NCBI GenBank assembly: GCA_949752745.1 | Contig: OX457024.1 | Coordinates: forward strand, 48,984,490-49,048,489 | DNA length: 64,000 nt | Origin: Protula sp. h YS-2021 | Lineage: Eukaryota; Annelida; Polychaeta; Sabellida; Serpulidae | Reading direction: 5' to 3' | In this document: in pieces, positions 3,061-47,769 of the stretch | Numbering within the stretch: position 1 is the first letter of the stretch | Layout of the letters: each line of letters begins with the position of its first letter | The notes under the pieces: model-generated | The model's database searches: none | Told to the model about the DNA's origin: nothing | The model's input: the letters and a program-made list of their open reading frames with translations, nothing else | Translations under genes and position numbers: made by a program

Positions 3061-3065
3061 CCTAC

Positions 3066-3365
3066 CTCGTTGTCCCTCTCGGTGGATGGTTGCGGCGTTG
3101 TCCCTCTCGGTGGATGGTTGCGGCGTTGTCCCTCTCGGTGGATGGTTGCGGCGTTGTCCCTCTCCGTGGATGGTTGCGGCGTTGTCCCTCTCCGTGGATG
3201 GTTGCGGCGTTGTCCCTCTCCGTGGATGGTTGCGGCGTTGTCCCTCTCCGTGGATGGTTGCGGCGTTGTCCCTCTCGGTGGATGGTTGCGGCGTTGTCCC
3301 TCTCGGTGGATGGTTGCGGCGTTGTCTCTCTCGGTGGATGGTTGCGGCGCTGCCCCTCTCCGTGA
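3066..3365. repeat. 28-bp minisatellite
   Basis: About eleven copies of a 28-bp unit ('gttgcggcgttgtccctctc' + 'ggtggatg') with C/G variation at one position. Because 28 is not a multiple of three, every frame cycles and stays open. The open frames over it are artefacts. Confidence 0.9.
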
Positions 3366-3784
3366 ATGGCGATGGTGAATTCTCTCTCCGTGGCTGGCGG
3401 CGGCTGTCGCGGTCCATGACCTGGGCGGTTCTAACATTGTCCCTAGCCCAGCGTAGGACTATTCCATGCCTTGGGCGTTTATATCATTGTCCATAGCCCA
3501 AGATTGTCTGCCTTTCCGTCGCGGGTGGTGAAACTGTCTCCGTTGCTGGTGTTGTAACTATGTGGCTGGCGTTGGCGCTGTCCAATTTTCTCACTGGCGT
3601 TGGCGTTGTCCTTCTTCCTGGCTGGCGGCGTCGCACCTGCCGGCTGGCGGCGTCGCATCTGAGATATAAAAAAAAGAACAAGGTCATGTAGACAAGGCAT
3701 TTAGAATCAGCGAAAAAGCTTATGTCTTAAAGAAATGCAACCGAACGAAATACACAAGTTACCGTAATGATCCCCTGAACCCAC

Positions 3785-5364: not shown

Positions 5365-5750
5365 AGTGGGGGGGGGGGGCTGTTGGCAGAGGGTCGGGTT
5401 GTGATGGAGAAGGTTAGGGGGCTGATTGTGGGCATTAGGGGGGGGGGGGGGCTGATGGACAGGGTTGGGCAGGACTGACGGAGAGGATCGGGGGCAGGGC
5501 TGATGGAGAAGGTGGGGGGGGGGGGGGCTGGAGTCCTCATAGGGAGGATCGGGGGAGCTAATGTACAGGGTCAGGTTGGGGGGGGGGGGGGAGACTGATG
5601 GAAGGGGTCGGTTTGCTGATGCAAGAGGGTCGGGAGGCTGATGCAAAAGTCTGGGAACTGATGCAAGAGGGTCACGGGGGCTGATGCAAGAGAGTCGGAG
5701 AGCTGATTCAAGAGGGTCGGGGGGGGGGGGGGGGGAGGTGGCTGATGCAA
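5365..5750. repeat. Poly-G and G-rich low-complexity DNA
   Basis: Runs of 9-15 G alternate with 'ctgatg.a.agggtcgg' phrases that grade into the 22-bp minisatellite. The Pro-rich minus-strand frames here are by-products. Confidence 0.8.
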
Positions 5751-8030: not shown

Positions 8031-8238
8031 AACCAAAAAGGGGGCATAAAATGTCACTAGTTTTCCACTGTAATAATGTTTTTTTTTTGCTTTTCATTTG
8101 ACGTAATGTATTTTGGATAATGTTGGTCCGAGCTGATGTTGTCATCTCATAGCAGAATAGGAAGCGTTGGGATTAGCGGAGCAAATCAATGTCGAATCTG
8201 CTATTTTCTTTTAATAATGAAACATAATGAAACTTACA

Positions 8239-8400
8239 TAGTTGTTAGACTCATCCAAATGTCCTCCGCTGGTGGGCTGTCCTCCGCTGGTGGGCTGTCC
8301 TCCGCTGGTGGGCTGTCCTCCGCTGGTGGGCTGTCCTCCGCTGGTGGGCTGTCCTCCGCTGGTGGGCTGTCCTCCGCTGGTGGGCTGTCCTCCGCTGGGC
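8239..8400 (-). repeat. D-type cassette with 18-bp repeats
   Basis: Nearly eight copies of an 18-bp unit ('gtcctccgctggtgggct'). On the minus strand it runs from 'tttcAG|AAGATAACAG' to 'AACAACTAT|GTAAG'. The repeat length is a multiple of three, and the frame EDSPPA is open throughout. I read it as an exon encoding a short disordered repeat. Confidence 0.55.
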
Positions 8401-8547
8401 TGTTATCTTCTGAAACACTTTGAGAAACGAAAAGAGTAATATTTTGATAATGCAAAAGAAACCCGAACCGAACCTTGAAAAACCCGGAACCCGGAATGGA
8501 ATACGTCAATATTCACGATTTAAAAAATAAATAAATAAAAATTTGAC

Positions 8548-8749
8548 TTATCACTGTCCGCTGCTTGGCTGTCCGCTGCTTGGCTGTCTGCCTTTTGGCT
8601 GTCCGCTGCTTGGCTGCCCGCTGCTTGGCTGCCCGCTGCTTGGCTGCCCGCTGCTTGGCTGCCCGCTGCTTGGCTGCCCGCTGCTTGGCTGTCCGCTGCT
8701 TGGCTGTCCTCTGCCTGGCTGTCCTCTGCTTGGCTGTCCTGTGCTAGAC
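8548..8749 (-). repeat. D-type cassette with 15-bp repeats
   Basis: About twelve copies of 'gctgcccgctgcttg' and variants. On the minus strand it begins at 'gtctAG|CACAGG' and ends near 'GGACAGTGATAAG'. It pairs with the array at 8239 across a conserved spacer carrying 'ggaatacgtcaatattcac'. The same doublet layout recurs at 12.7/13.0, 17.8/18.2 and 27.7/28.3 kb. Confidence 0.55.
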
Positions 8750-9009
8750 AAATTAAATATATTGTGCAGTATTTCTAACGAAAGAAAAGATTTGGGTACT
8801 TTTATGGTCTTCATACCCTTGTTAACTTTTCTAGCATAGTTTTACATCTCTCAGAATGTTGCGCGTTTGCAAACTTCAGCGCTTCCAAGTTTTCCAAAGG
8901 TTATTACCGGGTGTGAGCAGGCGAGCATGGCTACGTGCTAGTGGTAAAAACAGTCAATTCATCGTATTTATTCTGACAAAAGTATTTTTATTTAGATGAA
9001 CATTCTTAC

Positions 9010-10473
9010 GTGTTGATTGACTCATCCACATGACCTGATGCTCTTGTCTGTTCTCCAGCCTCTTTAGGCGAGCTATAGAACACACAAAATATTTCCCCGG
9101 TCTATTACCAAAATAACCAGCTATTACTATCAAGCTGTCCGTTTGAAAAGTTGTTAAGTTTCCGGCGTTGCCAAAGTGCTGTTGTCATGCTGTTTCTTTT
9201 TTCTTAACGTGATTTAAAAGTTTTCAAAGCTTGGGTCAGCAATAATGGAAGGAGGAGGGAGAGGGAGAAAGAGAGGGGGAGGGAGGATGAGAATGATAAG
9301 TCATCGCTTGCTGGTTTTCGTACTATCTCCACATGTTAAAAATTCAAGCCAATCGCTTACGTGTTGGTGGACAGATGAAGAGCAGCTGAGTCATTAGGAC
9401 GCGTTTTCCTGGGCTGCTTCCCTCTCGCTGTTAAACGTAAAATATGTGTGCAATGTTCTTGCTAATAAAAATTGTGATGTAACATGCCATTTTAAAACTT
9501 CTCTGGCATCTCCTCGCGAGCTATCAAACAAAATAAAAGTTTGTCAACCACGGAGCCCTCTGTGTAGTTTTGCTTCTTTTTTGAAACTTTTAATCAAGTT
9601 TCTAGTGTTGAATAAGTTTAATTTTGTATTGTTATGTGGCGTATACCGTTAAAAAATGCCTTCAAAAAGTTGTTAGGATGTAGTAAAGGGGGTGGCTGGG
9701 GTGGAAGGGGGTGGAGGTGAGAGGCGGTGAGGGCGACGGGGGAAGGGTGCGGTAGGAGAGGTGGAGAGTGTGAAGAGAGTAGAGTGGGGGGGGGGGGGTG
9801 GGAGCGACAGGCGAGTCGGAATGGGGGAGAGCGAGTAGGGAAGAGGTCAAATTTACAATATTTGCAAAAAAATTTTAGAGTTGGGGAGAGTGGTGGAGGC
9901 GAGTCGGGATGGGGGAGAGCGGGTAGGGGAGAGAAGAGGTGGGTCGAGGTTAGGGAGAGCACAGTACTTCTTATCCGGGCTAAGGATATTAGTTTTTTTA
10001 TTTAACAATTCCTTACGTGTTGGAGAGCTTGTCTGAGTGACTCGATGCTCGTGACGTTTGTTGGTTGTCCGGCATCTTCACTCCAGCTATTAAACATTAA
10101 GTGTAATATTTTTGCTGACCAGAGAGCCATCAATAACGTCACATTTCAAAGTTTTCAAGTTATAAGTCTATTTGACTGTTGCATTTCATATGGATGTAGC
10201 ATCTTTTTTTAGAATATAAGTCAGAGCTGTCTGGCATGTCATAGTGTTTGAGGTGGGAGTGTGGGGAATGAGGGAAGTCGAACAATCATGGATCTATTTT
10301 TATTCTAAATAATGGCACTTACGTCGTTGAGTGGCTGGTCCAAATGACGTGATGTTTCTCCGCTTGGCTGTCCTCCGATGGAACTGTTTCTCCGCTTGGC
10401 TGTCCTCCGATGGAACTGTTCCTCCGCTTGGCCGTCCTCCGCTAGAGCTGTTCCTCCGCTTGGCTGTCCTCTG
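9010..10473 (-). other. Cassette module A-C-B-D (minus-strand order D-B-C-A)
   Basis: Four exon-like segments, each flanked by AG upstream and GTAAG downstream on the minus strand: A 9010-9072 (63 nt), C 9361-9427 (67 nt), B 10017-10086 (70 nt), D 10323-10473 (151 nt with 15-bp repeats). All share a 3' motif reading G/S-H-x-D-x-P/S-I/L-N just before the donor, in one consistent frame. Segments between them are AT-rich and intron-like, with G-rich low complexity at 9690-9960. D ends in phase 0 and A, B and C in phase 2. Confidence 0.5.
9690..9960. repeat. G-rich low-complexity DNA
   Basis: 'ggtggagg/gagagtg' phrases with a 13-G run. No gene is seen. Confidence 0.7.
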
Positions 10474-10549
10474 CTAAGCAAATTACATTTGTTAGTTTTG
10501 GTAACCAAGAAGCAGCTTTTTATTCACCTTTATCTTTTCATTATTTAAA

Positions 10550-11190
10550 AAACAAGCCATCGTCGAAGGCGCAGACCGCAACTGGACACAATCAGTGACA
10601 CAGGTGTCTTGTTCCAAGTTTCCAGGTGAAACCACGGGGAGGTACTACCAAAGAGTCACCCACGTTAAGTATAGTAGCAAAAGACACGCCGTCAAAAATT
10701 TACACCGTGAAAGCGATAAGTAATAAAAGAAAACTACCAAGTTTTGAAATGTTATTCGCATATTTCAATCGGGTGTGGTATAACCTGCATAAAAATGAGG
10801 TCAAGCTCAAAAAAATTTAAAGTTTTCGCATTTTTGCAATTTTTCGAGAAATTCAAAAATAGCGCTTTGTCGCATAGCTCCACTACTTGGTCTTTCTATG
10901 TGCAAAAGGAAATTGAAATCGCTTGAATGGTGCCGGAGATATGGCGCGTACAAACTGCATATAATGAGGTAAAGCGCTAACAAATTTCAAAAGTTTCCGC
11001 ATTTTTTTTTTAATTTTTCGAGAAATCCGAAAATGCTTCGTCGCACAGCTCCACTACTTGGTCTTTCTGTGTGCAAAATCGGTTGAACGGAGCCAGAGAT
11101 ATAGCGCGTATAAAAATCGGACGGACGGACGAACTGACAGAGGTCAATCCAATAGACCCCTCTGGGTTCACCCGGTTGGGTTCTTTAAAA
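10550..11190. mobile_element. Dispersed repeat, pearl/HINE-like (family 1)
   Basis: Begins 'aagccatcgtcgaaggcgca', has two ~140-bp tandem units ('cacagctccactacttggtc'), then 'cggacggacgaactgacag', and ends 'aatagacccctctgg' + 'gttcacccggttgggttct'. The same two ends bound copies at 26.58-27.54 and 32.52-33.0 kb and, inverted, at 30.69-31.35 kb, while the tandem core differs. Confidence 0.5.
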
Positions 11191-11368
11191 TTAGTTTAAA
11201 ATCGTTCAGATTGTTGCGTTTTTACTCTGCATTGGTTCAAATTTTTGGGGAAGCGGGGAGGGAGGGGAGCAGGGGGAAGTGGTTACTACATGTGTATGTG
11301 TGTAGCAATAAGGTTAATTTATGGAATTTTTCTTATGATAGTATTTTTATTTATATAGACATGCTAAC

Positions 11369-13389
11369 TTGTTGATGGGCTCCTCCACATGTTCCGATGC
11401 TCTCATCTTTCATGTTCGGCGTCTCTGGGCGATCTATGGAACACAAAAAAATTGCCCAAGGGTTATTTATTACCCAAAGTACCGTCTATTATATAGCTGT
11501 CCTTTGAAAAGTTAATTTTCTAGCATTGATTAAAAAGCTGCTTTAGTGTTATTTTTAAGGCGAAAAAAGAATGGCTGTACCGTCGACCATAAAACTAACG
11601 ATTCCTCTGATTTTCTTTTCTAATCTTTCTTTGTTACAATATTCGAGATAAAGATTTACGTGTTGATGGATTCGTCCTGGTGACTCGGATGTTCTTCCTC
11701 GGTCGTTTTCTCGGGCTGCTTCCCCTCGCGCTGTTAGAACATAAAATACGTGTATAACATTTGTTGAATATTTATAACATAAGATGTTGAAAAATTATTA
11801 CATAAGATGTCATCATACAAGTTATTTCAGTCTTTTGTGCAAATTTACTAATACAGCTGTATTAGTTTTTTTTAAAGCTTCAGCTCAGTTTGGCATTCAA
11901 TGCCAAATTTTGTCATTGCATATTACTGCTGACGAACAGGCATCCAATGGTTGGACGTCACCTGATTCCAACCATTGGATCCAACCATGTAACGTTATTC
12001 TAAGCTGAAAAACGCACGTGCTGATAAGCTGGTCCTCATGACTTGACGCCGGAGACCTTTTTTTGATTGTCCGGTATCTTCTCGCCAGCTATCAAATATA
12101 AAATGGGATATTCTGTGAACCAGAATGACATCTATTTATTGTTGCTAAATTAACCTTGTGAAACTTTTGTGCGTTACATTGCTCACCTAAATATGCCGAG
12201 TAAGGACACAGTGGCCTCTACATGGCTATCAGCACGTAATAAGGTTATTTAAATACAAAGTGTTGCCAGAAAGAAATCAGCAACTATCGATTCATCGGAT
12301 TTCAAATAAAGTATTTAAGAATAGTAAAATTTTCACTGAAATAAAACAATTCCTCACGTGTTGATGAGCTTGACCTCATGATCCGATGCTCGCGATGTTT
12401 GACGGCTGTTAGGCATCTGCTTGCGAGCTAGTAAACATAAAATGTGATTATTCTTTACAGAACAGCGATCTATAATATGTAAACAAAATTAAGAAAGCAA
12501 ATATCTGTTTCATTGTTGCATTTCACATGGACGTAATATCTTTTCTAAAGAATATAAGTCAGAGTTGGTCAAGCGTATCGTAGCCTTAGGCGCGAGGGGG
12601 GGGGGGGGGGGCGAGTGTTGGTAATGGAACAAGCAAAGAATATTGAATCCGTTTAGTTTCTCTTCTGATAAATGAAACTTACGTCGTTGATTGGCTGGGC
12701 GAAATAACGCGATGCATCCCGGCTTGGCTGCCCTCCGCTTGGCTTTTCACCGCTTGACTGTCTTCCGCTTGGCTCTTCACCGCTTGGCTGCCCACACAGC
12801 TTGGCTCTTCACCGCTTGGCTGCCCACACAGCTTGGCTCTTCACCGCTTGGCTCTTCACCGCTTGGCTGTCCCCTGCATCTTCTGAAATACTTTGAAAAC
12901 GAAGAAATTAACAGATTGATAACGCAAGCACTGTCCGCACCGAACCCAGAGAAGCCCGAAACCCGGAATGGAATACGTCAATATTCACGATTTAAAAAAA
13001 GGAGAAAAATTTGACTTATCACTGTCCGCTGCTTGGCTGTCTGCTGCTTGGCTGTCCACCGCTTGGCTGTCCACCGCTTGGCTGTCCACCGCTTGGCTGT
13101 CCTCTGCTTGGCTGTCCTCTGCTTGGCTGTCCTCTGCTTGGCTGTCCTCTGCTTGGCTGTCCACCGCTTGGCTGTCCACCGCTTGGCTGTCCACCGCTTG
13201 GCTGTCCACCGCTTGGCTGTCCACCGCTTGGCTGTCCACCGCTTGGCTGTCCACCGCTTGGCTGTCCACCGCTTGGCTGTCCACCGCTTGGCTGTCCACC
13301 GCTTGGCTGTCCTCCGCTTGGCTGTAATCCGCTTGGCTGTCCGCTTCTTGGCTGTACTCCGATTCTGTCTGCTGCTTGGCTTTCTTCTG
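11369..13389 (-). other. Cassette module A-C-B-B-D-D
   Basis: Exon-like segments on the minus strand: A 11369-11433 (65 nt), C 11660-11730 (71 nt, fully open, starting REGKQPEK), B 12018-12088 and 12358-12427 (71 and 70 nt), D 12683-12882 and D ~13017-13389. D 12683-12882 ends in the AACGAC|GTAAG donor. A poly-G tract lies at 12596-12610. The A copy carries an in-frame stop in the shared frame, so at least some cassettes are decayed. Confidence 0.5.
13020..13350 (-). repeat. 15-bp minisatellite, ~22 copies
   Basis: Near-perfect tandem copies of 'caccgcttggctgtc' with blocks of 'ctctgcttggctgtc'. The minus-strand frames are (GQPSG)n, (DSQAV)n and (TAKRW)n, and all are open. Only (GQPSG)n is continuous with the conserved D-cassette tail seen in the single-D copies. 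Confidence 0.85.
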
Positions 13390-14157
13390 CTAAACAAGTG
13401 TGTCGTTGGTTTTGTTAACCAACATTTATGAGCATTTTTTTATTTTTAGACAATTGCTAGCGTAACTTGAAATCGTTCAGAATTTTTCAATACCGCATTA
13501 TTAAGTGGCATAAAAAGCGTACAGTAGTCGCGAATATCTGCAAGGATGTAGTAAAGAATCTGCCCGTGGGGGGGGGGGGGGGTGGGGAGGGCAGCGTGAA
13601 GCATAGGGAGGGTATGAGTGAAGGAAATGGCGGGTCGTTAATTACAACCGTCGAATCATCTGCTTTCTGTTCTGTACTAAAGGCACTAAATGACATTGAC
13701 ATTAGATTGACATTAAATGACTGCTTACGTGTTTGTGGGCTTGTCCTCGTGACCCGATGCCCGTGACGTTTGATGCTTGGCCGACATCTTCTTGCGAGCT
13801 ATAAAACATAAAGCACGATATCTATTAACCAAACAACCATCAATAATGACCTTTTAAAGTTCTTAACTGAGACAACTATCTGTTTTATTGTTAGGCGTCG
13901 TATCGTTTATTTTCTTTTCTTCACTGAAGATGCTAATATTTTTTATTGAAATTAAAGCATTCCTTACGTGTTGATGGGTTTGTCCTAATGACCCCGTGGT
14001 CGTGACGTTCCTTGGTTGTCCGGCATCTTCTCGGGCGCTATTTCACATAAAATTGATGCATTTGTTAACCAGAAAGCCATCAATGACGTCACATTTCAAA
14101 GTTTTCCACTAAGTCAAATACTTATTTGATTGTTGCATGTTACATGGGTGTAGTGTC

Positions 14158-14357
14158 NNNNNNNNNNNNNNNNNNNNNNNNNNNNNNNNNNNNNNNNNNN
14201 NNNNNNNNNNNNNNNNNNNNNNNNNNNNNNNNNNNNNNNNNNNNNNNNNNNNNNNNNNNNNNNNNNNNNNNNNNNNNNNNNNNNNNNNNNNNNNNNNNNN
14301 NNNNNNNNNNNNNNNNNNNNNNNNNNNNNNNNNNNNNNNNNNNNNNNNNNNNNNNNN
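14158..14357. other. Assembly gap (200 N)
   Basis: The ~112 bp just left of the gap (14046-14157) is almost identical to the ~112 bp just right of it (14358-14470). The gap therefore sits inside a tandem duplication and its true length is unknown. At least one B cassette is probably hidden. Confidence 0.95.
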
Positions 14358-14939
14358 ACATAAAATTGATGCATTTGTTAACCAGAAAGCCATCAATGAC
14401 GTCACATTTCAAAGTTTTCCACGAAGTCCAATACTTATTTGATTGTTGCATGTTACATGGGCGTAGTGTCCTTTATAAGAATGTAGGTCCGAGTTGACCA
14501 GGCGTTTCATAGCGTTAGATAAGGTGTGAATATGGGGAATGAGAGAAGAAAACTATGTTGAATCTGAATAATTAAACTTACGTCGTTGATTGAGTGGTCC
14601 AAGCGACGCCATTTTCTCCGCTTGGCTGTCCTCCGTTTGCTGTCCTCCACTTGGCTGTCCTCCGCTAAGCAAATGAAATATGTCGTATTAGTTTTATTAA
14701 CCGAAGAAACAACTTTTATGCACGTTTCTCCTTTGTATACTAATAAATAATTTTCCAATGTTATATAGTTCATAATGTTGCACCACAGAACAATGTGCTT
14801 AATGTTGCTTTTTTAACATTTAATCACTTTTCTAGCTGAGGTTGAAAAATCTTTTAATATTGTATTATTAATTGATGTTAGAAACGCTTACAGTAGTTGC
14901 AAAAAAGTTGATAACACAAGCTGTGACTGGGGGGTTAGG

Positions 14940-15060
14940 ATGTCGCACAGGCTGTGTGTGTGTGGGGGGGGGGGGGTGAGATAAGGATGGGGGGGGGGGG
15001 GAGTGGGTAGAAGAGTGTGGAGTGGGGGAGGGCAGAGGTGGGTAGTGGTTAGGATTGAGT
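14940..15060. repeat. G-rich low-complexity DNA
   Basis: Poly-G runs and 'gtgggg' phrases inside an intron-like spacer. Confidence 0.7.
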
Positions 15061-15714
15061 GGTCGGATATGGCGGGTCGTTGTTGACAACCATCGTACTA
15101 ATACTAATATTTTGTATTGAAATTATTCAATTGCTTACGTGTTGATGGGCGGGCTTGCCTCCTGATTATGCTTCTGGCGTTTGTTGGTTGTCCGCCATCT
15201 TGTCTCGAGCTATTAAACATAAAATATGATACCTTTGTTAACCAGACCACCATCAGCTATGTCACTTTTCAAAATTTTCCATTGAGTCAAATATCTTTAT
15301 AATTGTTGCATTTCGCATGGATCTGGTTATCGTTTTTTTGAGACTATAAGTCAGATCTGGTCAGGCGTATCAAAGTGTGTGTGGGTACTGAGGAAAGCAA
15401 ACAATCGGTTCATTTTCTATTCTGAACAATGAAACTTACGTGGTCGATTGGCTGCTCCAAATGATGCGATGTTTCTCCGCTTGGCTGTCATCCGCTTGGC
15501 TGTCATCCGCTTGGCTGTCATCCGCTTGGCTGTCTTCTGCTAAGTAAATAAAATTTGTCGTGTTTTGTTATCCAAAGAATCAAGTTTTAATCATCTTTCT
15601 ATTCAATATCTCTGAAAAAATGTAGTTTAAAATCGTTCAGAATGGGCGGGGTATTACTGGAAGGCAATACGATGAATCATACGATGAACCTTTTTACACT
15701 ACTTTTTTAAACTA

Positions 15715-16740
15715 GAGCCTCAGTAAGGCAGGATCCCCCGTGAAGCAGTAAAAGTAAAATGCATGAAAAAGCTACAGGTAAACATTAACGATTTTTTACA
15801 GCTTTCCTCACGTGAATTTTTGGCAGATTTTCAAAATAACTTAATTTATATTGTTTCAATACACATTCCGCATGCAAAAACTATTAAAGCACGTGTAACG
15901 ACAGAGTCTAAGTGTAGATGAACACACTATCAATAATCCTTAAAACACATGCAAAATGTGCAAGGTTTCCTGAAACGCAACCGCATTTGAATTATTTTTT
16001 AAATAAGTATTAACTACAGATCATACGTAAATCGTAACGCTAAAATTTCAAAATGTATTTCTGAAATAAACGTCGAATGCAGAAATGTAAATACCACATA
16101 GTAACGTCGTAGAGTTCGGTCGGACAAAACATCGTCTCATGGCTAAGTTCAAGCCAAAGGTTCACCATTTTTGACAATTTCCCACGACGTCAATTTTTGG
16201 CCGATTTCTACAATAATGCCACGTTGCACATCTTCAATATATATATTTTCACCATGCAAGGTTTCGGGTTCCTATGACAATCCCTTCTATGAGAAGTCGG
16301 TTGGACAAAACATCGTCTCACGGCTAAGTTCAAGCCAAAAATTCACCATGTTTGACAGTTTCCCACGACGCCAATTTTTGGCCGATTTAGACAACAATGC
16401 TACGTTGCACATCTTCAATATATGTATTTTCACCAAGCAAGGTTTCAGGTTCCTATGACATACCCTTGTAAAAGTCGACCGGACAAAACATCGTCATGGC
16501 TAAGTTCAGGGCAAAGATTTACCATTTTGACGATTTCCCACGACGTCAATTTTCCCCATTTTGACAATAATGCCATGTTGCACATCTTCAATATACATTT
16601 TTTCCCCATGCAAGGTTTCAGATTCCTATGACAACCACTTCTGTGACAAGTCGGCCAGACAAAACCTAGTAATTTTTGCGGACAGACAGACAGACGGACG
16701 GATGGACCAGCTCATAACTATATCCCTCCGTTTTACGGGG
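15715..16740. mobile_element. Dispersed repeat, pearl/HINE-like (family 2)
   Basis: Begins near 'gagcctcagtaaggcaggat'. It has four ~190-bp units ('acgttgcacatcttcaatat', 'ggtttcaggttcctatgac', 'gacaaaacatcgtc'), then 'gacagacagacagacggacg', and ends in the hairpin 'atccctccgttttacggggg' + 'ata'. The copy at 28.93-29.30 kb has the same start and end. Plus-strand 15744-15776 duplicates the exon-like patch at 29.98-30.03 kb. Confidence 0.5.
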
Positions 16741-16758
16741 GATAAGAAACATGCTTAC

Positions 16759-17364
16759 TTGTTGATGGGCCACGTGTTCCGATGCTCTCTTCTTTCTTCT
16801 TCGGCTTCTCTGAGCGATCTATGGAGCACAAAATTTTCTCAAGGTTTATTTATCACCAAAGAACTATCTGGGATGTAGCTGTCCTTTAAAAAAATTGTTG
16901 AAATGTTTCTACTTAAGGCCATTTTTCAAAAAAAAACTTGGGGTCCGAAGAATTATTTCGAACGGTGGGGGGGGGGGGATGGGGTGGTGGGGAAGGATGA
17001 GGGGTGGTAACAAGGGGGTAGAATAGCGGATCCTCTACTATAAAGCATTATCGATTCATTGTAAAATATTTGTAAGATTCAATAGTTACGTGTTGATGGA
17101 TTCGTCCTAGTGACTCGGAGGCTCTTCCTCGGTTGTTTTCTCGGGCTGCTTCCCCTCGTGCTGTTAAATATAAAATCCTTGTATAATATTTGTTGAAAAA
17201 GTATTATATAAGATGTCATTTACAACTTTAAAACTAAGTTTCTTATGCAAATTTACAAATACAGTATTAGTTTTGTCAAAGCTTTGGGGCAGTTTGGTAT
17301 GGAATGCCAAATTTGGTCAATCCGTATGTCTGAGGACTAGCAAGAGTCAAATGGTTGGTCTTTT

Positions 17365-17403
<39 letters not shown>

Positions 17404-18549
17404 ATTCCTTCGATTTTTTCGATCACAGAATGTGACTATTAAATAAGTTGAAAAACTCACGTTGACAGGCTGGTCCTCAAGACTTGATACTCCAGGCCTT
17501 TGTTGATTGTCCGGCATCTTCTCGCCAACTATCAAATATAAAGCGTAGTATTGTGTCAGCAAGAGCCATAGATTCATGTTGTTTCTTTCACTTCTTATTC
17601 CAATTTCTAGCATTGGTTAAAAAGTTATCTTACTGATCGGCGAAGAAATACGAAAAAATAGTAGTTGGCAAAAGTTGTTAGGGTGTACTACAAGGTGCGA
17701 CTTGAGGCGAGAGTGAGGGGGGCGAGTGGGAGAGGAGGGCTAGGTCGGGAATTGGGGTGAGTGGTGGGAAATAGCGGCTCGTTGTTGGCAACGCGTTACA
17801 TCTTTCTTTTCTGGACTATTTTCTATTCTGCATAATGAAACATACGACAATAACTGGCTGGCCCAAATGGCACGATGTTTCTCCGCTTGGCTGTCCTCGG
17901 CTTGGCTTTCCTCCGCCTGGCTGTGCTCGGCTTGGCTTTCCTCCGCCTGGCTGTGCTCGGCTTGGCTGTCCTCGGCTTGGCTTTCCTCCGCCTGGCTGTG
18001 CTCGGCTTGGCTGTCCTCCGCTTGGCCGTTTCCTGCATCTTCTGAAATACTTTGGAAACGAAGAAATCAACAAAATGATAGCGCAAACACTTCCCGAACC
18101 GAACCCGAAAAAGCCCGAAACCCGGAATGGAATACGTCAATATTCACGATTTAAAAAAAGGAAATAAAAAATTGACTTATCACACTCCGCTGATTGACTG
18201 TGCTTGGCTGTCCGCTGATTGGCTGTCCACTGCTTGGCTGTCCACTGCTTGGCTGTGCTCCGCTTGGCTGTCCGCCGCTTGGCTGTGCTTCGCTTGGCTG
18301 TCCGCCGCTTGGCTGTGCTTCGCTTGGCTGTCCGCCGCTTGGCTGTGCTTCGCTTGGCTGTGCTCCGCTTGGCTGTGCTTCGCTTGGCTGTGCTCCGCTT
18401 GGCTGTCCGCCGCTTGGCTGTGCTTCGCTTGGCTGTCCGCCGCTTGGCTGTGCTTCGCTTGGCTGTGCTCCGCTTGGCTGTGCTCCGCTTGGCTGTCCGC
18501 CGCTTGGATGTCCCTTCTTGCTGGTCCTCTGGTCCTTGGTTGTCCGCTG
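16759..18549 (-). other. Cassette module A-C-B-D-D
   Basis: Minus-strand segments A 16759-16818 (60 nt), C 17090-17160 (71 nt), B 17461-17528 (68 nt), D 17846-18041 (196 nt) and D ~18180-18549. This is the same order as the modules at 9.0 and 11.4 kb. A poly-A run at 17368-17399 and G-rich DNA at 16960-17010 and 17700-17770 lie in the spacers. This C copy has a stop in the shared frame. Confidence 0.5.
18186..18512 (-). repeat. 15-bp minisatellite, ~21 copies
   Basis: Alternating variants of 'gtgcttcgcttggct' and 'gtccgccgcttggct'. A higher-order 30-bp alternation is visible through most of the array. It forms the body of a D cassette starting at 'tttAG|CAGCGGACAACC' on the minus strand. Confidence 0.85.
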
Positions 18550-18710
18550 CTAAAGAAATATGTCGTGTTAGTTTTGTTCACTGAAGAACCAATTTGTTTG
18601 CATTTCTCTTAAAATCCTTGAACAATTTCCTGTAGTTTTGGTCTTGGTGGCAAGAAAACTATTGTTTTTTTCTGGAAGTAGTGTTTTATTTATACAAACA
18701 ATATTATTAC

Positions 18711-18778
18711 CTGTTGATGGTCTCGTCCACATCAACCGATGCCTTCATCTTTGTTGCTCGGCACCTTTCATGGTGGCT
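18711..18778 (-). other. Exon-like cassette, A type
   Basis: 68 nt on the minus strand between 'ttaaAG' and 'ATCAACAG|GTAAT'. The frame KASVDVDETIN is open and starts in phase 0. The next cassette in the series (C) lies 5.5 kb away at 24320, so a repeat block appears to have inserted here. Confidence 0.45.
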
Positions 18779-18909
18779 CTTTAACATACAAAAATTTTCC
18801 AAGCTATGTATATATCACCAAAAAGAACAAAAACTCATCGCAAAAAAAAAAAAAAAAAACAATTATGTAGCTGTCCTTTACAAAAGCTTTCGAAAAGATG
18901 CTAGCATGG

Positions 18910-20805: not shown

Positions 20806-20819
20806 ACGTTTTATGTCTT

Positions 20820-21083
20820 CATGTTTTCATACAATTTTGCTATATATCTATATCTCCATATCTATCTATATCTACATAACTATTATATATGTATATGTAC
20901 ATATCTATTATATATCTATATTTACATATCTATTATATATCTATATCTACATATCTATCTATATCACACATCTATATCTATATACATAGATATCTATCCA
21001 TCATATACCTATATCTATCCATCATATACCTATATCTATCCATCATATACCTATATCTATCCATAATATATACCTATATCTAT

Positions 21084-21114
<31 letters not shown>

Positions 21115-21118
21115 TATG
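20820..21118. repeat. ATCTAT/TATATC microsatellite
   Basis: Simple sequence of 'tatatctatatctacatatc' type ending in an (AT)n run. Confidence 0.9.
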
Positions 21119-21139
21119 CATAGTAAATCGGCTTGAGAA

Positions 21140-24135
21140 AAATTGAATTAAAACATCAGTATATGACAAGAATGCCCAGGGACCTTGTGAGCAGCCCAGA
21201 TCTGGTGAATCAAGTATCGACAGACTTGTATGGTCACCAAAAAGTGGTAGTCATTTTTTTAAATCGGTTATTCAAAATTTAACATTGTAACAAAAGTTTA
21301 GAGGCATCTGGTCAAAATTGTAGGGGAAGAAGAATTTTGAAAATTGGGCATTTTTGTTTAAATGCCCCCATTTAACCAAATTTTGGCTAAATGGGTGCAT
21401 TTAAACAAATGGGGGCATTTTTACAAGAGAACAGGTCAGTGATCATTTACAAAATGGTAAGGAAAAAAACCTTTGAAAAACTGACTACCAAAAAAATTCA
21501 ACCTGTTGCGCCTATTTTTGGTGGATCGCAAAAAAAGGACACATTCACATAAAATTGAAAAGGAGTTCGATTCAAATTGTGGAAGTAAAACTAATTTGAA
21601 AAAGGGCTACCGAAAAATTGAAAACTGCCTCCCATTTGGTCAGCTTTTGGTGGATCGCCAAAAATATAACTTTTTAAAAGACAAAAGGTTAGTGAATATT
21701 TATGCAATTTATGCATTTCAAGGCATTAGGATAAAAATTGTAGAAGAAAAAACCTTTGGAAAATTGACTACCAAAACTTTTTTAAAATGCCTCCTTTTGG
21801 GCAAATTTTTGGTGGATCGCCAAAAACTTTTAAGAGAGACCTACCGAGTACACATTCGTACAAAATTTGAACGGAATCTTGTCCAAATTGTGAAGTAGAA
21901 ATATTTCGTAAACTAGCCACCAAAAATGTAACTATGTCCCCCATTTAGCCATTTTTCTTTTGGTTCGCCAAAAAATTAACTAGCCAAGACTGGACGGCCC
22001 AGTGAACATTTATGAAAATTTAAAGATAACCCGATCAAAATTGTTGAACAAGCAGAAGAAAGAAGAAGGGCGAAGAAGAAGAAGAAAAAGGAGGAAGAAG
22101 GAGGATGAAGAAGAAAAAGGAGGAAGAAGAAGAAGAGGAGGAAGGAAGAAGAAAGAAGAAGAAGAAGAAGAGGAAGGAAGAAGAAGAAAAAAGGAAGAAG
22201 AAGAAGAAAGAAGAAGAGGAGGAAAGAAGAAGGAAGAATAAGAAGAAAGGAGAAGGAAGACGAAGGAGAAAAAGGAAGAAGAAAGGACAAGGAAGACGAA
22301 GGAGAAGGAAGAAGAAAGAAGAAAGAAAGAAGAAAGAAGGAAGAAAGAAGAAAGAAGAAAGAAGAAGGAAGAAGAAAGAAGGAAGAAGAAGGAAGAAGAA
22401 AGAAGGAAGAAGAATAAGGAAGACGAAAGGAGAAGGAAGACGAAGGAGAAGAAGGAAGAAAGGAAGGAAGGAAAGGGAAGGAAGGAAGGAAGGAAGGAAG
22501 GAAGAAAAGGAAGGAAAGGAAGGAAATGAAGGAAGGAAGGAAGGAAAGAAAGAAAAGGAAGGAAGAAAGGAAGGAAAGGAAAGGAAGGAAGGAAGGAAGG
22601 AAGGAAGGAAAGGAAGGAAGGAAGGAAGGAAGGAAGGAAGGAAGGAAAGGAAGGAAAGAAGGAAGGAAGGAAGGAAGGAAGGAAGGAAGGAAGGGAAAGG
22701 GAAAGGGAAAGGGAAGGGGAAGGAAGGGAGAAGGAGGAGAAGGAGGAGAAGGAGAAGAAGGAGAAGAAGGAGAAGAAGAAGAAGAAGAAGAAGAAGAAGA
22801 AGAAGAAGAAGAAGAAGAAGAAGAAGAAGGAAGAAGGAAGAAGGAAGAAGGAAGAAGGAAGAAGAAAGAAGAAAGAAAGAAGGGAGAAAGAAGAAAGAAA
22901 GAAGCAGCATTTTGATAATGGCAACAAAAAAACTTTATAATTGCTCCCATCCCCAATAAGCCATTTTGGCGGATCGACAAAAAAAAAAAAAAAAAAAATT
23001 TCAGGAGGGAACAACAGAGAACAAATCGTACAAAATTTGAAGAAAATCTTATCAAAACTGTGTGAGAAGCATTTTGAAAATTGACAACCAAAAAATTTTA
23101 ATGTCCCCACGAAGCCAGTTTTTTTTGTGAATCACCATAAAAGTTACTTTTCAAGAGAAACCTACCTAGAGAACGTACGTACAAAATTTGAAAGCAATCC
23201 AATCTTAATGGTTGGAGAAGAAACACTGAAAATCAGCAAGAAAAATTTAAAAAGTAACTTTTCAATAGAGAACACTAAGACAAAAACTGTGTAAAAATTG
23301 GAAAGAATCCAATCAAAATTGTAGGAGAAGCATTTTGAAAATGGGCTACCAATAAATTTCAAATGCACCCCATTTGGCTAATGTTTTGGCGGAAAAGTAA
23401 TTTTTTCAAGAGAAGCCTACCTAAAAGTATTCGTGCACAATTAAAAGAAAACCTAATCAAAGTTGTGAGAAAAGAAGCATGTTGGGAATTGCCAACCAAA
23501 AAAATTTTAAATCCCAACCATTTAGGCAATTTTTCGAGAGAAGCCCATCTGGAGAACATTCGTACAAAATTAGAATGGAATCCAATTAAAATGGTGGCAG
23601 TAAGTATTTTGAAAATGGGCCACCAATAAATTCTAAATGCCCCCCCCCCTCCCCACATTTGACTAATTTTTGGCGCATCGCCAAAAAAAAAAAGTAAGCT
23701 TTCGAGACAGACCCACCTAGAGAACATTCGAGTGCAAGTAAAAGAAAATCTGATCAATGTGCCAGAAATATCATTTTGGAAACTGACACCCATGAAATTT
23801 AAATGCCAACCATTTCGCCAAATTTCGTACAAAATTTGAAAAGAATGCGATCAACATTGTGGGAGAAGCATTTTGAAAACTGGCTACCAATAAATTTAAA
23901 TTGCTCCTATTTAGCCAATTTTTGGCAGATCGCCATTTTTTTTTTTTTTATTATTATTTTTTTTTTTTTGAAGAGAAGCCTGCCTAGAGAACATTCGTAC
24001 AAAATGTGAAAGGAATCCTATCAAAACTGAAGCATTTTAAGTAAAAGGTTACATGTGTACATACGTACATATGGACGACAGATGCCCCGGTATTGATGTT
24101 ACCAGACCATCTCGACGAATTCGGCTGGTTTAAAA
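21140..24135. mobile_element. Dispersed repeat with ~190-bp degenerate units
   Basis: Repeating phrases are 'ttggcggatcgccaaaa', 'agagaacattcgtacaaaat', 'ttgaaaggaatcc.atcaaa' and 'gaagcattttgaaaa'. They are interrupted by the purine tract at 22060-22915. The end is 'gtacatacgtacatatggac' and the hairpin 'accagaccatctcgacgaat' + 'tcggctggttta'. No coding capacity is credited. Confidence 0.5.
22060..22915. repeat. ~860-bp polypurine tract (GAA/GGAA)n
   Basis: The plus strand is almost purely A/G: (GAAGAAGGA)n, then (GGAA)n around 22450-22700, then (GAA)n. The Glu/Lys/Arg-rich and Ser/Phe-rich frames over it are artefacts. Confidence 0.95.
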
Positions 24136-24319
24136 ACTTTCTGAGCTAAAACAGCTGTTTTGATAGGGGTATGAATGTTTCCAAAACTGGAATATTGGTG
24201 GAAGCGGGGAGAAGGGGTAAGAATAGTGCATCATTGGTGCCAGCACAAACCGCTTTTCCTGATTTTCTTTCCTGGTCTCATTGTTTTTCAAACTAATTTT
24301 AATTTTAATTAACGCTTAC

Positions 24320-26523
24320 GTGTTGTGGACTCGTCCTGATAACTCGGATGATCTTCATCTGTCGTTTTCCCCAGCAGCTGCTCTTGTCCTGTTAAAAAGT
24401 AAAATCTGAGTAATATGTTTTGTAAATAAAGAAGTATTCAGTGACATGCGAGTTCGCGCCATTGGTGGCAAAACCATGCAAATTCGCCAGACTTTCTTTT
24501 TAAATCTCAGAATATGAATATATTTTACTGAAATTAAAGCAAAATCCTCATATATTTAGAGACGTGTCCTCATGACCCGATGCTCTCGACCTTCACTGCT
24601 TGCACGGTATTTTCTTTCGAGCTATCAAATCTGACGCAGCTTTCGAAATTTCTTGCGTTGGTTTAAAAGCTATATGGTATAATGGTACATCTTTAATTAC
24701 CCAAAAACGTTTACAGCAGTACTGGAATGACCGGAGGAGGTGGTGAAGGAGCTATAGAGTGGGGCAGGGGTGCAGCTGGGGGAGGAGACAGAGGGAAGAG
24801 TGGACAGAGGGGAGAGGGAGTGCGGTGTGATGGGAGTTGGGGGGAGTAGGGGAGAGTAGTGAGGGTGAGGAAAAGTTGGGTGGGGAGAATGAAAGTAGAG
24901 GGAGAAAGATGAAGTGAATAAAGAGTAACTGACGTATGGTGGTATAATTGTGCAAAAGCTTGAGCTCCAGCAGTTTCGTCTCGCTGTGTTATTTATATAC
25001 AATTGTTCCACCAGTAAATGTTTTATTTTCTCGCGAACCACATTTTCTGTCATCCAAGTCGTCACTAATTTCTGCACGCGATTTTTATTAGTCAAAATAT
25101 ATTATAAATTGACGCTTCAGAATTTTTGCGTTCCAAAATTAGGAAATCTCATTCGGATGCATGTTACATCAAACCACCAGTCAGCGGATCAAACGCATGC
25201 TCAAGCATTCTTACAAATACAGGTTTGAAAGTAGGGTGATTATTTTAAAATGCCCGAAAAAAATATGACGAAGTTAAAGAGCGAACGTCGAATTTAAATG
25301 TTGCGCCGCGGGCCATTTAAAGGGAAATGCGGCTATCTATGCGTCATCTAGCGACCGAAATGCGCATTACATTGAATATGGCTGGGTTTGAATCCATGTT
25401 TACACAGTATCAATAACTACTAAATCCGTCTAGATCGAAAAATTCTTTTCAAAGACAAATTGGGTCATGTCCAGAAGTGGTCTGTATTTATATTTTTTTC
25501 CTGGAAGGGTCTGTGCTGACATACTGTCCATTAAAATCATATTACACTGTTTTCACCATTTATTGAGTCAATGGGAGTTTGTCAAAAAGATTGTATAATT
25601 CTCTTATTGATACGGTGACATATATTTTTTTTTTTTGCTCAAAACATTCTGATGATGTGTTCTTCAAACAGGGGAAAAGGGGGCAATTGTCAATTGTGAT
25701 TATTTGAATTTTGCATTTTGATTGAAATTTCTTGGTTTTCCCATTTCTAGAGTAAAACTACGCGACCTTTCAGTGTATCTCTTGACCCCCCATTTTCTTT
25801 TCAATTTTTGAATTTATACCTTCAAAGCATTAAACTGTGAAAGTATGAAGGAAATGTCAATTGTAGGTGAGATACCCACATTTCCCTTTAAACGAATGCG
25901 ACAAAAAAAATGAAATATACAACATGTGCGTTTTGATTTTTTGGACAAATACACCACCATATTCGCGCTCCAACAGATGTTTTTGAGCAGCAGCAACAAA
26001 CAGATTATCGAGAGATTTATTTTTGTGCATCATGGAAAAATCAACACTGAATGAAATCGGGGTGGGACGGGGGAGTGGAATGGGTGAAGAGTGGAGATGG
26101 GGAGTGGGTGAGGAGTGAGGTTGGCAGAGGGTGTGTGAGTGGAGGCAAGTGGGTAAGGAGTGGGGCTGGGGGGAGGTGTGCAAGTGGATGAGTAAGGGGA
26201 GGTGAAGAGGATGGCTGAACAGTGGGGGAGAGTGGAAGGAAGAGACACGAGGAGAATGGAAGGGAGAGTGGTGGACACTTGGGCCGTGGGGAGATAGTTG
26301 AAGTGGGAGGGGGCGGGGGAGGGGGAAGAGTGCCGGGGCGAGAGTTGGGGACTGGTAGAATGGAGAGACTGGGGAATGGAAGAGAAGGGGGGTGGGGGCG
26401 GGGAGGAAGCCGGCCGTCGGTGGCAAGCATGGAATAGTTTCTGTTCACCTTACGGGTTGAAAGGTGGGTCCTCCTGGCACCATGCCCGCGACCTTTGCTG
26501 GTTGCCCGGCATCTTCTCGCGAA
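24320..26523 (-). other. Cassettes C-B-B
   Basis: Minus-strand C 24320-24388 (69 nt), a decayed B at about 24555-24621 with no clear GT donor, and B 26454-26523 (70 nt). Between them, 24720-24920 and 26050-26430 are G-rich low complexity, and 24930-26040 is AT-rich sequence in which I see no gene. Confidence 0.45.
26040..26430. repeat. G-rich low-complexity DNA
   Basis: 'agtggggaggtg/ggagagtgg' phrases. The Pro/His/Ser-rich complement frames are artefacts. Confidence 0.75.
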
Positions 26524-26579
26524 CTATCAAATATAAAATTATATTTTTTTCAAACAAGAAGCTGTTTATAACACATTTT

Positions 26580-27538
26580 AACAAGCCATTGTCGAGGGCG
26601 CAGACCAAAAGAACACTGACTAAACGATAAAAATCACCGGAATATAATAACCAGTAACCGATAGCAATGATTGGAAGGAAGAAACATTACTTGAACTGAC
26701 AGAAGTTTACTGGGATATCTGCTGGTCTCACAAAGGAAACTCAACACAAGTCCCACATTGCAGTTATCTCACAAAATCGTAATTTTTGACAAGTCGCTAT
26801 TTTTTGGCAATTTTTGACCAATTTGAAAAATACGACGTTGCACAACTTCAGTATATATATTTTCACTGTGCAAGGTAGCAATGCCTGGGGTAAATAATTT
26901 CGGAGAACTGGCGTGGAAAGCACCCAAGTCTTGCATTGCAGTTATCTAAAAAAAATCACAATTTTTAACAAGTCGCCATTTTGGCAATTTTTGGCCGATT
27001 TGAAAAATAACACAACGTTGCATAACTTCAATATATATATATTTTCACTGCACAAGGTGGGATATGTCTGGGGTAAATAGTTTTGGAGAACACGCGTGGA
27101 AACCGAAGTAATACATTATTTATCTAAAAAAAAATTGACAAGTTTTGTTAAGTCTCCATTTGAAAAATAACACGATGTTGCACAACTTCAGTATGAATAT
27201 TTTCACTGTGCAAGATAGCATATGCCTAGGATTCATTGTTTCGGAGATCTTGCGTGGAAAGCACCCAAGTCTTACATTGCAGTTATCTCAAATAAATACA
27301 GTTTTTGACAAGTCGCCATTTTGGCAATCTTTTACCGATTAAAAATAACACGACGTTGCACAACTTCAATATATATATATATATATATATATTCACTGTG
27401 CAAGCTTGCGTATGCCTAGGGTAAATAGTTTCGGAGAACTTGCGTGGAAAGAAAACAACATGCAAAGTGTAACACACGGAGAGACAGAGGGCAATCCTAT
27501 AGTCCCCCCGAGCTCGCCCGGTTGGGGTCTAAAAACTT
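26580..27538. mobile_element. Dispersed repeat, pearl/HINE-like (family 1)
   Basis: Begins 'aagccattgtcgagggcgca'. It has four ~190-bp units ('cgttgcacaacttcaatata', 'caagtcgccattttggcaat') and ends 'gggcaatcctatagtccccc' + 'cgagctcgcccggttggggt'. The first ~120 bp is found inverted at 31200-31345. Confidence 0.55.
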
Positions 27539-27690
27539 TTCTAGTTTCCCATGCAACTTAAAGAATGTGGGTCAAAGCGATATTGCAAATTCTGGGGCTG
27601 GGGTTTCGCGGTGAGGGGAGAGGGGGGGTTGGGAATGGGGAAAGCAAAAGAATAAAATTTTATTTCCATTCTCAATATAAAAACACTTAC

Positions 27691-28141
27691 CTGGCTGCTT
27701 GGCTCGTCTAAATGACGTGATACTTCTTCGTGTGGCTGTCCACTACTTGGCTGTACGCTGCTTGGCTGTCCTCGGCTTGGCTGTCCTCGGCTTGGCTGTC
27801 CTCGGCTTGGCTGTCCGCCGCTTGGCTGTCCGCCGCTTGGCTGTCCGCCGATTGGCTGTCCGCCGCTTGGCTGTCCTCCGCTTGGCTGTCCCCCGCTTGA
27901 CTGTCCTCCGCTTGGCTGTCCTCCGCTTGGCTGTCCTCCGCTTGGCTGTCCCCCGCTTGGCTGTCCCCCGCTTGGCTGTCCCCCGCTTAGCTGTCCTGGG
28001 CTTGGCTGTCCTGGGCTTGGCTGTCCTCGGCTTGGATGCCCTCGGCTTGGATGCCCTGGGCTTGGCTGTCCTCCGCTTGGCTGTCCTCCGCTTGGCTGTC
28101 CTCCGCTTGGCTGTCCTCCACTGGGCTGTATGCTGCATGTT
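27691..28141 (-). repeat. D-type cassette, 15-bp repeats (~27 copies)
   Basis: Runs on the minus strand from 'tttcAG|AACATGCAGC' to a GTAAG donor at 27686-27690. Units of 'ctccgcttggctgtc' vary mostly at two positions. The array is framed by the same non-repeat head and tail as the other D2 cassettes. Confidence 0.6.
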
Positions 28142-28264
28142 CTGAAACACTATGAGAAACGGAGAACGTAATGTGACGATAATGCAATCAAAACCTGAAC
28201 CGAACCCAAAAAAAAAATCCGGAATGGAATACGTCAATATTCACGTTAGAATAAACAAAAGACT

Positions 28265-28600
28265 TCTCGCTGTCCGCTGCTTGGTTGTCCTCCGCTTGGC
28301 TGTCCTCCGCTTGGCTGTCCTCCGCTTGGCTGTCCACTGCTTGGCTGTCCTCCGCTTGGCTGTCCTCCGCTTGGCTGTCCTCCGCTTGGCTGTCCTCCGC
28401 TTGGCTGTCCTCTGCTTGGCTGTCCTCCGCTTGGCTGTCCTCCGCTTGGCTGTCCTCCGCTTGGCTGTCCTCCGCTTGGCTGTCCTCCGCTTGGCTGTCC
28501 ACTGCTTGGCTGTCCACTGCTTGGCTGTCCACTGCTTGGCTGTCCTCTTGGCTGACCTCCGCTTGGCTGTGCGTTGCTTGCCTGTCCTCCGCTTGGCTGT
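28265..28600 (-). repeat. D-type array, 15-bp repeats (~22 copies)
   Basis: The partner of the 27691 array across the conserved spacer with 'ggaatacgtcaatattcac'. Its minus-strand 5' border is unclear. The array shades out near 28595. Confidence 0.55.
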
Positions 28601-28840
28601 ACAATGCAGAATTTAAAATTAAGTTTTCTGGTTTGTTCTTAAACAAGGGAGATTTGGGAAGTGGAAAATGCTACAATCGTCATTTTCAAAGAATGTTTTG
28701 CAACTCTTCTCACTAAAAAGTTATTTTCTGCAATACTGGGTAGCCATTACTCTCTTGTGTACAATATATATCTGCTTTGTTATGTCAAAAAAGCAGCTCC
28801 GTGACAATCATTCAAGGTTAATTTACAAACAAATAATTAC

Positions 28841-28901
28841 CTGTCGATGGGCTGATCCAAACATCATATTCTTCACTGGTCTTCCACCATCTTGTCGGTA
28901 G
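28841..28901 (-). other. Exon-like cassette, A type
   Basis: 61 nt on the minus strand between 'ctAG' and 'GACAG|GTAAT'. It is the last recognisable member of the series on this side, so the 5' part of any transcription unit would lie above 28.9 kb. I cannot identify a promoter or first exon there. Confidence 0.35.
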
Positions 28902-47768: not shown

Positions 47769-47769
47769 A

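Follow-up and report, generated by a model that had tools for sequence, protein, structure and literature searches.

The 64,000-nucleotide stretch of the serpulid annelid Protula sp. h YS-2021 that we analyzed (assembly GCA_949752745.1, contig OX457024.1, positions 48,984,490 to 49,048,489; here called the window) carries on its minus strand an array of short exon-like cassettes of four types, A, B, C, and D, which may be a spliced gene that grew by duplication of its own exons. Over the whole window, the minus strand holds 19 A, B, and C cassettes (A1 to A5, B1 to B9, and C1 to C5), 3 diverged candidates (X1 to X3), and 7 D arrays, the last made up of 11 exon-like parts, as D1, D2, D5, and D7 are split and D3, D4, and D6 are undivided. 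A sequence-only reading of this DNA had counted about 25 segments between positions 8239 and 28901, and this count was correct: 18 A, B, and C cassettes (A1 to A5, B1 to B9, and C1 to C4) and the 7 D arrays lie there. It had also described a fixed D-B-C-A order in the minus-strand direction. That order is never reversed, but some units are incomplete, without C or A, and in some the B is doubled; the array reads A1, D1-B1-B2-C1-A2, D2-B3-C2-A3, D3-B4, D4-B5-B6, D5-B7-B8-C3-A4, D6-B9-C4-A5, D7.

Read in the minus-strand direction, the array begins with A1 (28841..28901, 61 nt, donor GTAAT). D1 follows in two parts, D1a (28271..28596), a 15-bp tandem array with GC instead of GT at its 3' border, and D1b (27691..28141), a 15-bp array with a TTTCAG acceptor and a GTAAGT donor. 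After these come B1 (26454..26523, 70 nt), B2 (24552..24621, 70 nt), which has lost its donor (AT), C1 (24320..24388, 69 nt), and A2 (18711..18778, 68 nt). The next group consists of the 15-bp arrays D2a (18186..18549) and D2b (17846..18041), B3 (17461..17528, 68 nt), C2 (17090..17160, 71 nt), and A3 (16759..16818, 60 nt). C2 has a TAG in the frame that encodes the motif G/S-H-x-D-x-x-I/L-N, which we call the motif frame. The undivided D3 (15440..15539, 100 nt) has three motif-frame TGA codons and is followed by B4 (15139..15209, 71 nt). D4 (14582..14664, 83 nt), also undivided, is frameshifted and precedes B5 (13968..14037, 70 nt, motif-frame TAG) and B6 (13729..13798, 70 nt). D5 consists of a 15-bp array, D5a (13023..13389), and a frameshifted mixed 15/32-bp array, D5b (12683..12882), and leads to B7 (12358..12427, 70 nt), B8 (12018..12088, 71 nt), C3 (11660..11730, 71 nt), and A4 (11369..11433, 65 nt, motif-frame TGA). 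The last groups contain D6 (10323..10473), undivided and built of 32-bp units, B9 (10017..10086, 70 nt), a truncated cassette relic that is probably a B (9499..9531, profile match with E=1.3e-5), C4 (9361..9427, 67 nt), A5 (9010..9072, 63 nt), and finally D7a (8555..8743), a 15-bp array, and D7b (8238..8409), an 18-bp array. As had been noticed earlier, B cassettes are mostly exactly 70 nt long (6 of 9, the remaining ones being 68, 71, and 71 nt). The D units, in contrast, are not all multiples of three as had been proposed, since units of 15, 18, and 32 bp are found.

The array does not end at position 8239, where its limit had been placed. It runs further left to C5 (4799..4863, 65 nt), detected by the C model with E=5.4e-18 (C5 itself being included in that model), and to X2 (2340..2405), a diverged cassette with AG/GTAAG borders that was not part of a model and was detected with E=5e-5, and possibly to the left edge of the window. 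X1 (2593..2677) and X3 (2045..2119) are possible diverged cassettes, with E values of only 2.1 and 1.3, respectively. Tandem exon-like arrays with units of 22, 28, and 56 bp are present at 0.4 to 3.4 kb, and the array probably also takes in these E arrays at 0.3 to 3.7 kb. E1 (3061..3660) is a possible exon-like array of 28-bp units behind a CAG acceptor, E2 (1240..1780) has 22- and 56-bp units behind TTTCAG, and E3 (300..925) is a near-copy of E2 with units of the same two sizes; all three are on the minus strand. Only an inspection by eye, based on a GGG-rich stretch and a CAG acceptor ahead of ATGC, relates E to D. Within positions 1 to 1991 the E unit is duplicated in tandem (86% over 1128 columns), and the recently duplicated E arrays are one 22-bp unit apart (by eye; 4.5 versus 4.1 copies), which is a non-triplet difference. 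Between C5 and D7, at 5588 to 7034, there is a 22-bp satellite of about 66 copies with the unit GGGGAGCTGATGCAAGAGGGTC, and about 850 nt of GAA/GGAA-rich low-complexity sequence lies inside the array at 22046 to 22904.

The four cassette types have a common origin. We searched the window, and a reversed window as a control, with four nhmmer profiles built from single cassette types. The A profile detects B6 (E=2.3e-7), B7 (E=2e-5), and the 3' part of D3 (E=3.9e-4), and the C profile detects B5 (E=2.7e-5) and B9 (E=3.4e-5). Every profile match at an E value of 0.001 or below falls between 2.3 and 28.9 kb of the window and lies on the minus strand; weaker matches are partly on the plus strand, the best of them (E=0.0057) lying inside C4. 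The reversed window gave a single match over the four profiles, with E=4.5. Because profiles of one type detect the others, A, B, C, and the 3' part of D share one ancestral exon, and this cross-detection bears out the descent from one exon that the sequence-only reading had proposed. Larger segments have been duplicated as well. The block at 18581 to 17817 matches that at 13419 to 12654 (80% over 780 columns, largely D arrays), and 15524 to 15128 matches 10409 to 10006 (74% over 416 columns). A 200-N gap at 14158 to 14357 lies between two 113-nt copies (14358 to 14470 and 14045 to 14157) that are 97% identical. They likely reflect a scaffold join at which two haplotypes meet or a segment was falsely duplicated. 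As the flanking copies are probably a false duplication, D4 and B5 are probably neighbors, and assembly errors near this gap may raise the indel count given below slightly.

The cassettes look like real exons, since 18 of the 19 A, B, and C copies have retained both AG and GT; the exception is B2, and the AG is kept in all 19 copies of the alignments. The binomial probability of at least 18 intact copies out of 19 is 8.5e-8, 6.8e-6, or 3.7e-3 at an assumed per-base retention of 0.77, which is about the exon average, or of 0.82 or 0.90, which are alternative assumptions. The AG/GTAAG borders reported earlier hold in a looser form: counting the last border of each D array, the donor is GT in 24 of 25 segments, but the exact GTAAG is found in only 15 of 25, and B2 has AT. 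Three of the four internal D borders start with GT, D1a being the one with GC. Cassettes and introns also differ sharply in composition. The T content is 11 to 14% in A, B, and C and 4.5% in D, compared to 34% in the remaining array sequence. When all copies are compared, the similarity in excess of that between shuffled sequences is +0.26 to +0.35 at the acceptor, +0.17 to +0.21 in the exon, and +0.32 to +0.41 at the donor, but only +0.04 to +0.09 in the first 60 nt of the flanks and -0.01 to +0.03 in the next 60 nt, so that the shuffle level is reached about 70 to 130 nt out. Between 8238 and 28901 the minus strand has 27 GT[AG]AG sites, with 16 at cassette ends and 11 elsewhere, and the plus strand also has 27. 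It is possible that decoy donors are scarce outside the cassettes or that this is an effect of composition only.

In a first comparison over all copies, exons seemed far more conserved than introns. A comparison of segmentally paired copies showed that, for B, this was mostly because introns lose alignability through indels and not because exons have fewer substitutions, and we rely on this second result. The paired set took in four of the nine B copies, three of the five A copies, one B-C pair, and the four D introns, and its intron distances refer to alignable columns only and are thus lower bounds. In B4, B5, B7, and B9, which share introns, divergence is 0.324 in the exon, 0.310 in the intron, 0.167 in the acceptor region, and 0.111 at the donor, and the frequency of gap events, per 100 aligned sites, is 1.4 in the exon, 3.6 in the intron, and 5.6 in the short donor stretch. 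For A3 to A5, the values are 0.221 in the exon, 0.294 in the intron, and 0.133 in the acceptor region. The sequence-only reading had named equal substitution inside and outside the cassettes as a result that would speak against a gene. Substitution is indeed equal in the four intron-sharing B copies, but it is lower inside the cassettes in A and in the comparison of B3-C2 with B8-C3; splice sites evolve more slowly in B and C, and the result is unclear in A. Constraint is therefore mixed, acting on splice sites in B and C and on exon sequence in B3-C2/B8-C3 and partly in A.

The D arrays have two features of their own. None of the three frames of their 15-bp unit, GGACAGCCAAGCGGA, contains a stop, and in the majority of D arrays two or more frames are open; D1b, D2b, and D7a are open in the frame that gives GGQPS repeats. 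The density of GGAGGA is 16.2 per kb in D and 1.6 per kb in A, B, and C, with no occurrence in introns, and AGGACAG reaches 20.0 per kb in D. We take these purine-rich GGA units to resemble binding sites of SR proteins (SRSF1). The other feature is that D1, D2, D5, and D7 are each cut by an intron-like stretch of 129 to 145 nt that starts with GTGATAAG or similar (GC in D1) and ends with TTTCAG. All four stretches contain an identical minus-strand element of 25 nt, at 28219..28243 in the gap between D1a and D1b, 18122..18146 in D2, 12963..12987 in D5, and 8491..8515 in D7. The surrounding intron-like stretch has a mean divergence of 0.20, and the expected number of such elements in shuffled sequences, allowing up to 3 mismatches, is 0.00. 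The element contains TGACGTA, CATTCC, and TTCCGG, which we presume to resemble CREB/ATF, TEAD, and ETS sites, and it is possibly a regulatory element. A GGG-rich tract adjoins it and, judged by eye, could form a G-quadruplex in some copies.

The sequence-only reading had proposed a gene of duplicated small exons that encodes variable, disordered repeat peptides. A gene-like array from one ancestral exon is what we find; that it now encodes such peptides is not supported, because there is no phase chain through the copies, frameshifting indels are at chance level, and stops are not significantly depleted. Of 13 exon indels, 9 are not multiples of three, which is the share expected by chance; one 1-nt insertion common to C2 and C3 was counted twice, so there are perhaps 12 events with 8 non-triplet. 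In A, B, and C together, the three frames contain 27 stops, compared to 32.2 +/- 3.6 in shuffled sequences, a difference that is not significant beyond composition. D has 15 stops compared to 23.8 +/- 3.4, but the repeats within it cannot be counted as independent. When 29 exon-like parts were spliced in silico (B2 and X1 to X3 were omitted), the longest open reading frame was 526 amino acids, compared to 489 +/- 117 over 500 shuffled exon orders, 32% of which gave one as long or longer. Stops or shifts are present in D3, D4, D5b, and D7b.

The reading phases suggest one scheme in which the copies could nevertheless be joined. In the motif-frame consensus, A and C go from phase 0 to 2 and B goes from 1 to 2, or from 0 to 2 if an AG eight bases inside is used; two of the three undivided Ds, D3 (100 nt) and D6 (151 nt) but not D4 (83 nt), go from 2 to 0. 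Given these phases, A, B, and C cannot join each other in frame, but one of them between two Ds can. B, C, and A could thus be, or could have been, mutually exclusive versions of one exon with D as their common partner. If true, the exons of the array would be combined by a Dscam-like logic to produce disordered repeat chains that vary, and the phase conflict pointed out in the sequence-only reading would be accounted for. Only six of the 19 copies (B1, B6, B7, B9, C3, and A2) have the right length and no stop in this sole chaining phase scheme, and the other 13 have a stop or the wrong length. With six intact copies and three stops in D3, the scheme, if it ever worked, is broken in most copies, and we consider it very improbable.

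Searches for known RNAs, domains, and relatives gave little. No common RNA fold was predicted for 15 of the 19 A, B, and C exons (A1, B2, C4, and C5 were omitted), Rfam gave no match at gathering score in the whole window, and ARAGORN reported no RNA gene at its threshold. A snoRNA host gene with tandem units was considered, but with E up to 1 over positions 1 to 29500 there was one weak match to snR98 (21.6 bits, compared to a gathering score of 40); this negative covers the known snoRNA families. In six translations, the only protein domain matches were low-complexity ones of the Keratin_B2 and Extensin type and one weak match to a phage family. The matches to the high-sulphur keratin family PF13885 are above the curated cut-off (E=1.5e-16, 3.9e-15, and 6.1e-13). 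This family consists of cysteine-rich pentapeptides, and the GGQPS repeat has no cysteine, so that we regard these matches as a low-complexity artefact. Two peptide composites gave no match in a protein database at E<=10 and E<=1 (12 and 207 candidates, respectively), in a weak search whose candidates were limited by length and shared words. Two DNA patterns had no match in a viral contig collection, and among the titles listed in a text search of the literature none describes this array.

The explanation that we favor, tentatively and with slightly less than even confidence, is that the array is a spliced minus-strand gene, tandemly exon duplicated, that is non-coding or no longer coding. From the sequence we infer that the minus strand is transcribed and that the listed borders are used. 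The RNA would be non-coding or no longer coding because the splice signals are kept (18 of 19) and the frame apparently is not (6 of 19). Such a gene would have expanded as a small segment of exon and intron was repeatedly duplicated in tandem, a single ancestral exon of about 70 nt giving rise to A, B, C, and D, and D, and probably also E, acquiring tandem repeats of purine-rich units. The mature RNA would be a string of interchangeable U-poor exons, drifting in sequence while selection for splicing retains them. The repeat exons rich in GGA may enhance splicing or offer RNA-binding proteins multivalent sites, much as the local repeats in the exons of Firre do, and the ancestor was perhaps a coding exon, as a weak synonymous bias suggests.

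Several observations weigh against this explanation. The borders were partly picked by their AG and GT, so the retention of 18 of 19 is overestimated, and the donors of D1a (GC) and B2 (lost) deviate. In B, C, and A, 4, 17, and 9% of the exon dinucleotides are as conserved as the AG, and 34, 17, and 9% are as conserved as the GT. We therefore regard border retention as good but not overwhelming evidence for exons. Over all five A copies, the last six acceptor bases diverge by 0.333 compared to 0.327 in the intron, which is no slower, and in some pairs identity is lower in the exon than in the aligned intron (0.70 versus 0.78 for B5/B7 and 0.76 versus 0.83 for A4/A5). The exons of B3-C2 and B8-C3 diverge by 0.122 and their introns by 0.323, which is more constraint than splicing alone needs. 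The 3' ends of exons are constrained in C and A but not in B (last 18 nt versus core, 0.21 versus 0.37 in C, 0.19 versus 0.41 in A, and 0.34 versus 0.33 in B). There are also possible traces of coding. In the donor-anchored frame, 12 of the 19 A, B, and C copies are free of stops. In the motif frame, the pooled ratio of nonsynonymous to synonymous differences (pN/pS) is 0.66, compared to 0.88 +/- 0.13 for permuted columns (P=0.033, uncorrected, with three sense frames per type examined in the pooled test and six in another comparison). By type it is 0.62 in B (P=0.04), 0.67 in C (P=0.115), and 0.86 in A (P=0.405), and some other frames are equally low (0.64 in plus-frame 1 and 0.59 in minus-frame 0 of C, 0.66 in minus-frame 2 of A). 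This weak synonymous bias suggests coding, at least ancestrally, and is the chief finding that speaks for a protein.

The same bias (P=0.033) would fit a living, fast-evolving protein gene for disordered repeat peptides, in which a subset of the exons is used and broken ones are skipped. T-poor exons that have few stops in any frame, the GGQPS frame that is open in D1b, D2b, and D7a, and the conserved B3-C2/B8-C3 exons fit such a gene as well, and the intron-like speed of B would fit relaxed or diversifying coding sequence. On the other hand, the indels are mostly non-triplet (9 of 13), D3, D4, D5b, and D7b carry stops or shifts, 13 of the 19 A, B, and C copies fail the chaining phase, the open reading frame shows no length excess over shuffled orders of the exons, and the two peptide composites found no protein relatives. 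A living protein gene is therefore doubtful. Even more doubtful is that the array is a relic, a dead repeat-protein gene whose splice borders survive only because too little time has passed. Eighteen intact border pairs out of 19 at a pairwise divergence of about 0.3 exceed what drift would leave (P values of 8.5e-8 to 3.7e-3), and in the B family divergence is lower at the splice sites than in the exon or the intron. Decay is nevertheless visible in the truncated copy at 9499 to 9531, the lost donor of B2, and the stops and frameshifts; other repeats lie between the units, and the splice dinucleotides are just moderately more conserved than the exon bodies.

It is improbable that there is no gene here at all and that locally amplified repeat DNA happens to have units that start after AG and end before GTAAG. 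The window is rich in other tandem and dispersed repeats, and B exon bodies and introns are equally diverged, which speaks for this view. Against it are the sharp difference in composition between cassettes and introns, a similarity excess centered on acceptor, exon, and donor, GT in 24 of 25 donors, and the 16 of 27 minus-strand GT[AG]AG sites that fall at cassette ends. Whatever its nature, the array offers a graded series of exon paralogues in one genome, in which the divergence of splice sites, exons, and introns can be compared side by side. Such a series provides a test of whether selection can maintain splicing after the frame is lost. If transcribed, the array would clearly exemplify a gene that owes its growth to exons duplicated in tandem and whose frame was later lost or never required.

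Elsewhere in the window, positions 47289 to 63610 hold an element between 100-nt inverted repeats that are 95% complementary, which we take to be Polinton/adintovirus-like. On its minus strand there are an integrase with a chromodomain (58449-59621), a packaging-ATPase-like gene (57793-58479), an adenovirus-protease-like match just below the cut-off (53765-54238), an open reading frame with a NADAR domain (60101-60556), and another with 382 relatives and no Pfam match (54199-55578), which we take for a putative capsid protein. On the plus strand, an open reading frame of 1247 amino acids (48169-51909) has only a weak Pfam match to Endonuclease_7 and is, we assume, possibly a polymerase. A large imperfect inverted repeat occupies 39039 to 44766, with 527-nt arms that are 97% complementary and 2386 nt apart, and with further nested arms. 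An open reading frame at 44741 to 45604 has three identical 69-bp tandem units and encodes Cys/His-rich peptides that look RING-like by eye, but the Pfam scan found no RING in it; a related open reading frame lies on the minus strand at 46472 to 47161.

Among known systems, the limpet shell-matrix protein Lotgi1|235621 is listed with 16 GGQPs/tT repeats (PMC3374290). These resemble the D array in one frame, but the resemblance is short and of low complexity, and most D arrays have other open frames as well. The schistosome micro-exon genes, as far as the cited passages describe them, also combine many very short exons with gene duplication, and their exons are at most 81 bp long and mostly multiples of three (PMC10526429). 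Here, A, B, and C cassettes are 60 to 71 nt, and only 3 of the 19 are divisible by three, the other 16 not being so. In the sections that we use of a study on mutually exclusive exons, neighboring exons derived from one exon are often termed homologous exons, exons predicted to form a mutually exclusive cluster must agree in frame, match in length, and lack in-frame stops, and many similar neighboring exons are found not to be mutually exclusive (PMC5740500). The neighboring exons of our array are homologous in this sense, as in a Dscam-type cluster, but 13 of the 19 copies fail in frame, phase, or absence of stops and only 6 pass.

Two comparisons concern RNAs and not proteins. In human long intergenic noncoding RNAs (lincRNAs), according to the portion of the work cited, purifying selection acts mostly on splice-related sequence, nearly all of it at exon ends, which is not so in Drosophila (PMC4245815). 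Splice-dominated constraint is what the human lincRNAs and our array have in common, as far as that portion goes. The lincRNAs are known transcripts whose evolutionary rates were determined, whereas here paralogues in one genome are compared, and exon ends evolve more slowly here in C and A but not in B. The other comparison is with Firre, which differs in being transcribed, its repeating RNA domain (RRD) retaining the RNA in the nucleus according to the passages cited (PMC4820808), while our array is known from its DNA. Four exon classes derived from one exon, with internal tandem repeats in D, are a further difference. The RRD, in the same passages, makes up 7 of 13 human exons and overlaps 11 of 23 mouse exons, and the other local repeats of Firre are mostly intronic (PMC4820808). 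If our cassettes are taken as exons, the array likewise has exon-borne repeats common to the exons of one locus. As in Firre, exon-sized local repeats occur within one locus, and here both the exon copies and a separate intron element recur.

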